From the NCBI GenBank assembly GCA_902627935.1, contig CACOLA010000002.1, positions 62,001-126,000 on the forward strand: a DNA stretch of 64,000 bases, in the 5' to 3' direction. The stretch comes from an uncultured Pelagibacteraceae bacterium. GTDB lineage: Bacteria; Pseudomonadota; Alphaproteobacteria; Pelagibacterales; Pelagibacteraceae. Positions 59,088 to 62,326 of the stretch are shown in pieces. The notes under the pieces were generated by a model that saw only the letters and a program-made list of their open reading frames with translations, did no database searches and was not told the origin of the DNA. The position numbers and the translations under genes were made by a program. Positions within the stretch are counted from its first letter, which is position 1. Every line of letters starts with the position of its first letter.

Positions 59088-59413
59088 TGACTTACATAGT
59101 AAATGATAAATGTATTAAATGTAAACTAATGGATTGTGTTGAAGTTTGTCCAGTAGATTGCTTCTATGAAGGTAAAAATATGCTTGTAATTAAACCTGAT
59201 GAGTGTATAGATTGTGGCGTTTGCGAACCTGAGTGTCCAGTAGACGCTATAACTGCTGATACAGAACCAGGTAGTGAAAAGTGGTTAGAAATCAATAAAC
59301 AATATTCTGAAATCTGGCCAAACATAAGTGAAAAAAAAGATCCTCCATCGGATCACAATAAATATAAAAATGAACAAAATAAGTTTGAAAAATATTTTAA
59401 AGAAAACCTTTAA
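59087..59413 (+). CDS. fdxA: Seven-iron ferredoxin
   Basis: A 108-residue ferredoxin of the FdxA type. Cys motifs [14 protein letters not shown] and [12 protein letters not shown] can hold one [3Fe-4S] and one [4Fe-4S] cluster. The N-terminal [12 protein letters not shown] and [12 protein letters not shown] are family signatures. It transfers electrons in the cytoplasm; the partner is not evident. carD follows, with its likely start inside the 3' end of this gene. Confidence 0.95.
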
Positions 59414-60272
59414 GAAAAAAGTCCCAAAAAAAACTGCCAATAAAGTTGTAAAAAAAAAAACAACTAAATCAAATAAAATTAAGAAAAAAGCTGACAAAAA
59501 AAATTCAAAAAAATTGATTAAAAAAAAAATAATCAAACCAAAAAAAATAAATAATCAGAAAATATCTAAAAAAACTGAACAAACAATAGAGACTAAGACT
59601 GATAATTTAAGAATAGCTAAAACTAATGAAATAAAGCCAGAAATTAAAAAAGTCAAAAAGCAAGAAACTCAAAAGAAAGAATATAAGGTTAAAGATTATG
59701 TTGTTTATCCTAAACATGGAGTTGGTCAAATAACAGAATTTAAAAAAATAAATATTGGTGGTATAGATGTCGAAACCTATATAATCAAATTTGAAAAAGA
59801 TAAAGCAAATGGAATGGTGCCTGTAAACAAGCAGTCTCATTTACGTCCTTTGGCAACAATAAATCAAGTTAACAAATGTATTTCAATTTTAAAAAGTAAA
59901 CCAAAAATAAAAAGATCAATGTGGAGCAGAAGAGCTCAGGAATACGAAGCCAAGATTTCATCTGGTAAAATCTATGAATTAGCCGAAGTCGTTAGAGATT
60001 TGAATAAAGGCGATGATCTAATGGTTGATCAATCTTATAGCGAGAGACAATTATTTGAAAAAGCTTATGAAAGAATTCTTTCCGAATTTCAAATAGTTTT
60101 AAACGTATCTATTGAGGATACTCAAAAAAAACTTGATAAGGCTTTAAAAAGAAATTTAGGTGGAAATCAACCAAATCAAGCAACTAAAGAAGCCACGAAA
60201 GCCCCTACTAATGATTTATCAACTGAAGAACCTATAGGTGATGCAGATGATACCGAGCCTATTGATGATTAA
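59370..60272 (+). CDS. CarD-family transcription regulator with Lys-rich N-terminus
   Basis: CarD/CdnL proteins bind RNA polymerase beta and stabilise open promoter complexes. I place the start at ATG 59370 (300 residues); a GTG at 59328 is possible. The first ~100 residues are dominated by Lys, with runs such as [17 protein letters not shown]. The CarD domain starts at [17 protein letters not shown], with [14 protein letters not shown] in the RNAP-interaction domain, then the DNA-binding region [16 protein letters not shown]. An acidic tail ([12 protein letters not shown]) ends the protein. It is preceded by fdxA and followed by a strong hairpin terminator. Confidence 0.88.
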
Positions 60273-60314
60273 AAAAAACGCCTCTCACACAAATCGTTAT
60301 GAGAAGCGTTTTTT
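60273..60314. terminator. Bidirectional terminator between carD and the basic peptide gene
   Basis: An 11-base stem AACGCTTCTCA/TGAGAGGCGTT (minus strand, one G-U pair) with a 12-base loop is followed by eight T on the minus strand. On the plus strand the same hairpin has one C-A mismatch and is followed by six T. It can end both carD and the basic-peptide transcript, and fits the minus direction better. Confidence 0.8.
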
Positions 60315-60332: not shown

Positions 60333-60416
60333 CTATCTTCTTCTTCTTCTTTTCTTAGCTTTTTTCTTAGCTTTTTTCTTAGTTTTCTTTGCAGCTTTTT
60401 TTCTTCTTTTAGGCAT
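60333..60416 (-). CDS. 27-residue Lys/Arg-rich peptide
   Basis: A very short gene: ATG 60416, stop TAG. The peptide starts MPKRRKKAAKKTKKKAKK and ends in five Arg. 13 Lys and 7 Arg make 20 of 27 residues; the rest are Ala, Thr and Pro. The composition is like the tail of histone H1 or a nucleoid-condensing peptide. Support for a real gene is strong: a consensus promoter, a hairpin leader, GGGAG 7 bases before the ATG, and a strong terminator 20-60 bases past the stop. It is monocistronic and convergent with carD. Nucleic-acid binding is my inference. Confidence 0.75.
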   Translation of the reverse strand: MPKRRKKAAKKTKKKAKKKAKKRRRRR

Positions 60417-60440
60417 CTTTAGCTCCCTTTTATTAGTTAA

Positions 60441-60459
60441 ACGAATCAAATTGATTCGC
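60441..60459 (-). promoter_or_regulatory. Hairpin in the leader of the basic-peptide gene
   Basis: GCGAATCA, loop ATT, TGATTCGT (minus strand) form an 8-base stem between the predicted transcription start and the GGGAG ribosome site. It could protect the mRNA 5' end or serve as an operator. Confidence 0.5.
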
Positions 60460-60469
60460 TATTAACTTA

Positions 60470-60498
60470 TATTTATTTTTTTAAACAAGTTATGTCAA
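60470..60498 (-). promoter_or_regulatory. Promoter for the basic-peptide gene
   Basis: On the minus strand a perfect -35 TTGACA (60493-60498) lies 17 bases from a -10-like TAAATA (60470-60475). A start near 60463 gives a leader of about 47 bases. Between 60499 and 60625 I see only A/T-rich spacer with no further gene. Confidence 0.65.
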
Positions 60499-60625: not shown

Positions 60626-62326
60626 TTAATAAAGTTTTTCTAATTCCTCTTTATATTTTTCTAAAATTTTTTTTCTTTTAAGTTTTAAAGTTGGTGTTAA
60701 CATTCCATTATTAATTGTAAATTCGTCTTTAATTATTTTAAATTTTTTAACTTTTTCAACTAAAGATAAGCTTTTGTTCAAATTTTCTATATAAAATTCA
60801 ATATTTTTTTTATTTTCATCACTATCACTAACAATTAACGCAACTAAATAAGTTTTTTTATCTCCATAAACAAAACTTTGAAGTATTTTTTCATTTAAGC
60901 ACAACATATTTTCAATTTTAGATGGTGAAATATTATCACCACCAAGATTTACAATAATTTCTTTTTTTCTATCAGTTATTTTTAAATTTCCATCTTTAGT
61001 AATCTCTCCTATATCTCCAGTCGATAACCATCCATCTCTTATAATCTCATCTGTTTCTTTTTTCATATTCCAATAACCAATCATCACATTTTCACCCTTT
61101 ACTAAAATCTCACCATCTGAAGCTATTTTTACTTGATTAGTGCTAAAGGGTGGTCCTACTGTCTCAATCTTAATTTTACCTGGAATGTTACAGCTAACAA
61201 CAGGTGACGCCTCAGTTAATCCATAACCCTGTAAGGTTGGTAAGCCTATAGAATTTAAAAATTCGCCAATTTTTTTATCTAAAGCACCCCCACCTGAGAC
61301 AAAAGCTTTCAATTTACCTCCAAATTGATTTTTAACTTTTCTTCTTACAAGTATTTCACATAAAAAATTTAATATCTTTTGTCTAAAATTTAATCTTTCA
61401 TTTTTTAAAATTTTTATCCCAAGAAAAATAGTCTTATTAATTAATTTTTTTTTAAAACCTTTTTGTTTTGAAAATGAGAAAGAAATCTTGCTAAATAAGT
61501 TTTGATAAAATCTTGGAACTGCTGTCATTATAGTTGGTTTTGCTTCAAACATATTAGAAACTAACTTTTCTAAACTTTCTGCGTAAAAAATTTTTGCACC
61601 AAGTGAAATTTGTACATACTGAACTGTATGTTCGTATGAATGAGACAATGGAAGCCAGGTCAAAAAAACTGGTTCTTCATTTTTAATAAGTTTTTTTAAA
61701 ATTTCTTGAGCTCCCTCGCAATTCGACAAGATACCTCCATGACTAATCATTACCCCTTTAGGATTGCCAGTTGTACCAGAAGTATAGATTATACAAGCGA
61801 GATCTTTTCTCTCAATTTCTTGATTAAAATTTGATTGATCCTCTAAAATATTTTTTGTTGAATTTTCATTAAAAAAATCATCAAGACACTTAATTTTATC
61901 ATTTATATATTCTATTGATAAAATTTTAATATCATTTGAAATAAATTTTTTTATTTTTTGAAATTGAAGATTATTTGAAACAATACAAATTTTAGGCTTA
62001 CAATCATTTATGATATATTCATAGTCATTTTCTGAATAAGTAGTAAAGAGTGGAACAGTCACACCCCCAGCGTTCATAATTGCTATATCGGTAATAAGCC
62101 ATTCAGGTCGATTTTCTGATAATAAAATGCATCTATCTCCTTTTAATAAATGTTTTTTTAAGTAATCAGATAAAATACGAACATTTAATTCAACTTGTTT
62201 CCAAGATAAAAAATCCTTTTCATTATCCCTTAAAGATTTTAAAAATGGCTTATCAGAAATTGAATTTATTTCTTCACTCTTTTTAAAAAAAAGTTCTACT
62301 AAGCTGTTGGTACTGCGTAATTCCAT
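60626..62326 (-). CDS. Long-chain acyl-CoA synthetase (AMP-forming)
   Basis: A 566-residue ANL-superfamily enzyme that activates a fatty acid with ATP and CoA. AMP-binding motifs are IIYTSGTTGNPKGVMISH and GYGLTEASPV; DGWLSTGDIGEI marks the hinge and C-terminal domain, and KIENML lies just beyond. A final catalytic-type Lys is in LTPTLKLKRKKI. The pattern is nearest the FAA1/FadD group of long-chain enzymes. Its ATG at 62326 lies 4 bases after the CCA end of tRNA-Leu, so no separate ribosome site is possible outside the tRNA. Confidence 0.9.
   Translation of the reverse strand: MELRSTNSLVELFFKKSEEINSISDKPFLKSLRDNEKDFLSWKQVELNVRILSDYLKKHLLKGDRCILLSENRPEWLITDIAIMNAGGVTVPLFTTYSENDYEYIINDCKPKICIVSNNLQFQKIKKFISNDIKILSIEYINDKIKCLDDFFNENSTKNILEDQSNFNQEIERKDLACIIYTSGTTGNPKGVMISHGGILSNCEGAQEILKKLIKNEEPVFLTWLPLSHSYEHTVQYVQISLGAKIFYAESLEKLVSNMFEAKPTIMTAVPRFYQNLFSKISFSFSKQKGFKKKLINKTIFLGIKILKNERLNFRQKILNFLCEILVRRKVKNQFGGKLKAFVSGGGALDKKIGEFLNSIGLPTLQGYGLTEASPVVSCNIPGKIKIETVGPPFSTNQVKIASDGEILVKGENVMIGYWNMKKETDEIIRDGWLSTGDIGEITKDGNLKITDRKKEIIVNLGGDNISPSKIENMLCLNEKILQSFVYGDKKTYLVALIVSDSDENKKNIEFYIENLNKSLSLVEKVKKFKIIKDEFTINNGMLTPTLKLKRKKILEKYKEELEKLY

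Follow-up and report, generated by a model that had tools for sequence, protein, structure and literature searches.

SAR11 cells shed nearly everything and are considered frugal with nitrogen. A small locus in a Pelagibacteraceae genome raises the question of why such streamlined bacteria still retain a gene whose peptide is among the richest in nitrogen that can exist, and of what this peptide does. The locus lies in the window (the whole 64,000-nucleotide stretch of DNA analysed here) and holds a 27-codon gene for MPKRRKKAAKKTKKKAKKKAKKRRRRR, whose 27 residues include 13 Lys and 7 Arg and contain 2.26 N atoms per residue. SAR11 are the most abundant bacteria of the ocean, and this gene, located opposite carD, has been overlooked. 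Our literature search found no description of it, and the main text of Meyer 2009 on SAR11 structured RNAs (PMC2704228) makes no mention of carD, lysine, a small protein or a short ORF.

Gene structure and signals

The gene is 84 nt long, from a start ATG at 60416-60414 to a stop TAG at 60335-60333. The features of the locus are as follows.

59370 to 60272, plus strand: carD, the convergent neighbour of the peptide gene; Pfam PF02559 (RID) and PF21095 (CarD_C)
60266 to 60314, minus strand: intrinsic terminator, bidirectional and common with carD; its U run ends at the carD stop codon
60333 to 60416, minus strand: the 27-codon gene, stop TAG; frame kept in 85 loci
60423 to 60427, minus strand: GGGAG ribosome-binding site, 6 nt ahead of the ATG; all loci have GGGAG or a near variant of it
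60440 to 60460, minus strand: 5'-terminal leader hairpin of 9 bp with a loop of 3; contains the invariant CGAATCA box (60458-60452)
60462 to 60464, minus strand: predicted transcription start, about 7 nt past the -10, inferred from the -35/-10 spacing
60470 to 60475, minus strand: -10-like TAAATA, with no T at the last position; non-consensus and variable among relatives
60493 to 60498, minus strand: -35 TTGACA; TTGAC in 76/76 loci compared, in both Pelagibacteraceae and the sister family f2
60626 to 62326, minus strand: long-chain acyl-CoA synthetase (AMP-binding), the upstream neighbour, a separate unit

The coordinates and residue counts given in a preliminary description of this DNA are confirmed, and the TTGACA placed 17 nt from an A/T-rich -10 and the GGGAG site are present as reported there. 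The leader hairpin, described as having 8 bases, has 9 bp upon refolding. A spacer of about 130 nt, A/T-rich, separates the acyl-CoA synthetase gene from the -35 of the peptide gene. At the other end, a terminator-like hairpin followed by a U tail lies at about 60314-60273 and has a folding energy of -21.4 kcal/mol (z -6.6); on the carD strand the hairpin is weaker (-14.8 kcal/mol). The promoter and terminator of the preliminary description stand as elements that are present and conserved in relatives, but they do not stand as scored predictions: a simple sigma-70 scan counts no promoter at the peptide gene (TAAATA is without the final T), and a strict terminator scan reports none. Our promoter and terminator calls are therefore made because the signals are conserved, not because of a consensus score.

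The N-terminus of CarD itself (59370-59672) forms a Lys-rich tail of about 100 residues ahead of the RID domain, and the sister family has this tail as well. The gene of a transcription factor with an H1-like tail here adjoins that of an H1-like peptide.

Because lysine is readily encoded by AAA-rich DNA, a gene of this composition could be a chance ORF in A/T-rich DNA. The window has a single ORF of at least 20 aa with a K+R fraction of at least 0.7, while none is found in 150 random 64-kb sequences (Markov-1, with the dinucleotide frequencies of the window). Even with a K+R fraction of at least 0.5, no ORF of at least 20 residues occurs in these 150 sequences. This absence and the order-wide conservation described below refute the chance reading, to which we give practically no weight.

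Conservation in Pelagibacterales

Using carD as an anchor in related genomes, the DNA past its 3' end was read. A convergent Lys/Arg-rich gene is found at 85 of the 85 carD loci with enough flank, representing 84 genomes from 11 genera of Pelagibacteraceae and the sister family f2. Five loci without the gene (L018, L023, L036, L040, and L181) stop at a contig edge. The search for a short gene opposite carD in other SAR11 genomes, suggested in the preliminary description, thus recovers it throughout together with its promoter, leader, ribosome site, and terminator (a G+C-rich hairpin with a T run exists at the terminator position in nearly all loci). The description of the gene as monocistronic with its own signals holds, since all of these elements and the frame are conserved. 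Frameshifts between strains, named at the outset as evidence against the gene, are absent except in L061, an incomplete genome, where a one-base length difference in an A-run puts the last codons off frame. The L061 product has 47 aa instead of about 21, and the frameshift could be an assembly error.

The Pelagibacteraceae peptides are 20-58 aa long and made of K, R, and A with a few P, T, G, and S. Examples are MAKRRKAKKGKKKAKKRRRR (20 aa, L079) and MAKKRKKAAKKKVAKKPAKRKVAKKKPAAKKRKPAAKKKAPAKKRKPAKKKTAKKRKR (58 aa, L178). In the genus of the window, K+R makes up about 75% of the peptide. Intermediates of 34-58 aa with APAKK/KPAAKKK repeats are found in genus g15. Apart from the off-frame tail of L061, the only residues found after the start Met in the family are K, R, A, P, T, G, S, and V, with one V confined to the longest forms (genus g15). 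As AAA and AAG are one base away from codons for E, Q, N, and I and from stop codons, this restriction implies purifying selection on charge. The N-terminal MAKRRKKA or MPKRRKKA and the C-terminal RRR are kept, with varying codons (AGA/CGT, GCT/GCA/GCG, and AAA/AAG). The same leader and peptide start are also found in single-cell genome records of Pelagibacteraceae. Judged by this conservation, the gene in the window is a real coding gene.

Two irregular loci were seen. In L052 (at the contig end of G120) with L161, the leader and peptide start that come after a CarD of the g12 type are those of Pelagibacter (g1), which reflects either recombination between genera or a chimeric assembly (the genome is 6% contaminated). 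In G090:C6:5206-8339, the carD-peptide locus exists twice on one contig in inverted orientation, probably an assembly artefact.

The sister family and the direction of change

In the sister family f2, the proteins encoded at the same place are 76-91 aa long (one has 40 aa), e.g., MEELKVIFAKARKKAKKKAAPKKKRKAAKRKP... They consist of a conserved N-terminal segment, MEELKVIFAKA, and KKAAPKK repeats of lysine, alanine, and proline. The N-terminal segment is absent from the Pelagibacteraceae forms. AlphaFold predicts no globular domain for an 85-aa f2 orthologue (mean pLDDT 68, pTM 0.24). The genes of the two families are treated as orthologues because they occupy the same place and share the promoter and leader; orthology was not taken from protein alignment, which low complexity makes meaningless.

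A CarD tree recovers the genera and places f2 as the sister of Pelagibacteraceae. Since no outgroup with the gene was found, the tree leaves the direction of length change undecided. An ancestral long form is possible and would agree with genome streamlining. At 28 loci from other alphaproteobacterial families, no peptide gene adjoining carD was found. Neither the leader pattern nor the codon pattern identifies a copy in viral contigs, and a phage origin was set aside on this ground; the MPKRRKKA-like starts seen in 13 viral contigs belong to unrelated proteins. Ranging from 20 to 91 aa over the genera, the series serves as a natural experiment that asks what portion of an H1-like tail is required.

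Leader hairpin and the CGAATCA box

The leader hairpin of the window folds at -8.5 kcal/mol (z -5.7). In 76 of the 76 loci with the CGAATCA box, from both families, the box begins 38-42 nt past the start of the -35, while anything from 36 to 63 nt separates it from the start codon. The box is thus anchored to the promoter, at the predicted 5' end of the RNA. In L008 the leader has CGAATCG in place of CGAATCA.

The box lies inside a hairpin in every case and its partner arm varies. The CGAATC arm pairs with GATTCG or GATTTG in 68 loci, and the GATTTG arm (10 loci) retains a G-U pair, which is tolerated by an RNA hairpin but not by a DNA palindrome. The f2 hairpins have lost the outermost C-G pair. 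An altered 3' arm is seen in genera g8, g12, and g15, where the stem is still present but displaced by some bases (TCAC...GTGA); the leader of genus g10 resembles these. The expected number of occurrences of the hairpin pattern in the window is 0.04, and the genome has one. Among the 247 genomes of the family it occurs in 170, at most once per genome, with zero hits for the reversed control, and good genomes without it belong mostly to the shifted-stem genera. As no second CGAATCA box or hairpin copy was found in the bacterium's own genome, a wider CGAATCA-box regulon was rejected. The most likely task of the 5' hairpin and its box is to protect or tune the short mRNA.

The f2 leaders have a second small stem immediately 5' of the ribosome site; in this stem a compensatory exchange is seen once (ACCC/GGG versus ACGC/GCG in L038). 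In the sister-family leaders (L032-L043 and L083), a conserved AACCTCTAACTAAACCC is able to pair with the GGGGGGAG ribosome site or with the start region; translational control is possible. A leader CTCC complementary to the GGAG of the ribosome site is seen in g10, g12, and g15 (L049-L051, L053-L055, L177, and L179). The second stem of f2 and the CTCC/GGAG pairing suggest some control of mRNA stability or translation.

Codon usage and detection

The peptide gene uses AAG for 28.5% of Lys and GCT for 83% of Ala (the sequences counted are not independent of one another); in carD and in the genes for elongation factors and ribosomal proteins the figures are 14% and 41-48%. As the bias is unlike that of elongation-factor and ribosomal genes, it is not taken as proof of the high expression proposed in the preliminary description. 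The bias looks less like the usual codon optimisation than like A-runs being broken up or a 12-nt repeat unit being copied. A-runs in the peptide gene are at most 7 long in 36 of 42. AAG is found mostly at the start of Lys runs, and the Lys-rich tail of carD has A-runs of 8-11. The placement of AAG may limit slippage on poly-A.

By default, Prodigal accepts genes of 90 nt or longer, and it is plausible that automated annotation would discard a gene of 84 nt. Complete trypsin digestion of the peptide yields no fragment longer than 3 residues. Such a gene falls in a systematic blind spot, being under the usual minimum of gene finders and giving tryptic fragments too short for proteomics. The start-site tables of an in-situ study of HTCC7211 list annotated genes only, with hupA among the top starts (PMC5069720).

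Proposed function and alternatives

The 27-mer has no match in Pfam, NCBIfam, or PDB chains, and Rfam has no usable match. The long f2 form likewise has no match in Pfam or NCBIfam and no usable one in PDB, where the sole match of a long orthologue, a ribosomal L29 protein, is weak (E 0.52). Neither the short nor the long form matches the curated H1-like profiles of Pfam/NCBIfam, a test weakened by composition filters.

We consider it fairly probable that this single-copy, monocistronic gene, found across the sampled Pelagibacterales, makes a miniature histone-H1-like protein that binds nucleic acids and has a role in the nucleoid. The link to histone H1-like tails, drawn in the preliminary description, is strengthened by the f2 gene at the same place, which encodes an H1-like KKAAPKK protein. 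The Pelagibacteraceae form would be this protein with the N-terminal segment absent and the repeat cut to 20-58 residues. With about 21 positive charges and no hydrophobic core, the peptide would be a flexible polycation without a fold. It would bind DNA (or RNA) via the phosphate backbone, and would neutralise and bridge the nucleic acid locally. Such binding is suggested by composition and homology, and the nucleoid role is likewise predicted from sequence. The genome has two HU/IHF-family genes, located elsewhere, so that the peptide would be an additional factor, acting beside HU and not in its place. Against the approximately 2.6 million phosphates of a 1.3-Mb genome, its 21 or so charges make bulk neutralisation impossible with 100,000 copies or fewer. 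Precedents exist among H1-like proteins. Peptides derived from the AlgP repeats bind DNA in vitro (PMC9239181), and Hc2 of Chlamydia is described as varying in repeat number (PMC2848022).

Homology to any named H1-like family is beyond proof with sequence of such low complexity, and the composition would fit RNA, ribosome, or polyphosphate binding equally well. The main rival is a very small ribosomal or rRNA-binding protein, i.e., an extended basic peptide threading rRNA as bTHX, bS22, or eL41 does. Size, charge, single copy, and family-wide presence fit this reading, the structured leader is generally like those of ribosomal protein genes, and the one weak PDB match mentioned above is ribosomal. 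A protein threaded through rRNA, however, is not expected to range from 20 to 91 aa by changes in repeat number with little positional constraint; the gene does not adjoin ribosomal genes, no ribosomal family is matched, and the 27-mer has no match to the bTHX, bS22/COX24, and eL41 profiles in Pfam, NCBIfam, and PDB chains. We regard the ribosomal reading as unlikely, while giving it more weight than the other alternatives. A polycation that binds polyphosphate, membrane, or a metabolite instead of nucleic acid is improbable: the H1-like AlgP does localise to polyphosphate granules and space them (PMC9239181), but no polyphosphate genes are linked at this locus and no sequence feature distinguishes such a polycation.

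Another alternative places the function in the RNA. In Mycobacterium, the antisense RNA AscarD covers the whole carD gene (PMC8820732), and the transcript studied here is also convergent with carD, overlaps its 3' end, and has a strongly conserved leader box. While AscarD spans carD, the terminator here ends at the carD stop codon, and no AscarD-like complementarity to the carD coding region was found. Also, the reading frame and K/R composition are kept with synonymous change, and the ribosome site is conserved. We therefore give little probability to the product being an RNA, small or antisense, that acts on carD. A short K/R-rich ORF followed by a terminator may also resemble a leader peptide that attenuates a downstream operon in response to Lys/Arg. 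Gene order excludes this, as carD is convergent in all loci read; there is no downstream gene on the same strand, with carD and the genes before it running the opposite way, and an unsystematic look saw no alternative antiterminator fold. We give attenuation hardly any credence.

If the peptide is an H1-like nucleic-acid-binding protein, a conserved protein of 20 residues of K, R, and A would come close to the smallest size at which a nucleoid or RNA-binding protein can function. A more tentative proposal is that it might be the smallest of all known dedicated nucleoid proteins: streamlining would have reduced an H1-like linker protein to a bare polycation of 20-30 residues, universally kept with its own ancient promoter and an mRNA leader element of a new kind, the CGAATCA box.

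Comparison with known basic proteins

Among known nucleoid proteins, HU and IHF possibly share a nucleoid task with the SAR11 peptide, which is without the HU fold, unrelated in sequence, and not matched by the HU/IHF profile PF00216. The ribosomal proteins of the bTHX, bS22/COX24, and eL41 types are alike in having 25-35 residues, strong basicity, and a single copy, while the SAR11 peptide varies by repeat units, matches none of these families, and lies outside a ribosomal locus. Protamines and other small arginine-rich packaging peptides are similarly short and polycationic and have no fold. In contrast to them, the SAR11 peptide is lysine-rich and comes from a free-living bacterium with no evidence of bulk packaging. 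The bacterial H1-like proteins (Hc1 and Hc2 of Chlamydia; AlgP and PhaF of Pseudomonas) also have repeats of lysine and alanine (and proline) without acidic or bulky residues. Variation in repeat number is common to both, and the f2 orthologue has the KKAAPKK type. The repeats are clear in f2 and g15, while the peptide of the window keeps AKKK and has one P only. The Pelagibacteraceae peptide differs in its lack of an N-terminal domain, its higher arginine content, and its size, 20-58 aa compared to 165-237 aa in Hc2 and 352 aa in AlgP.
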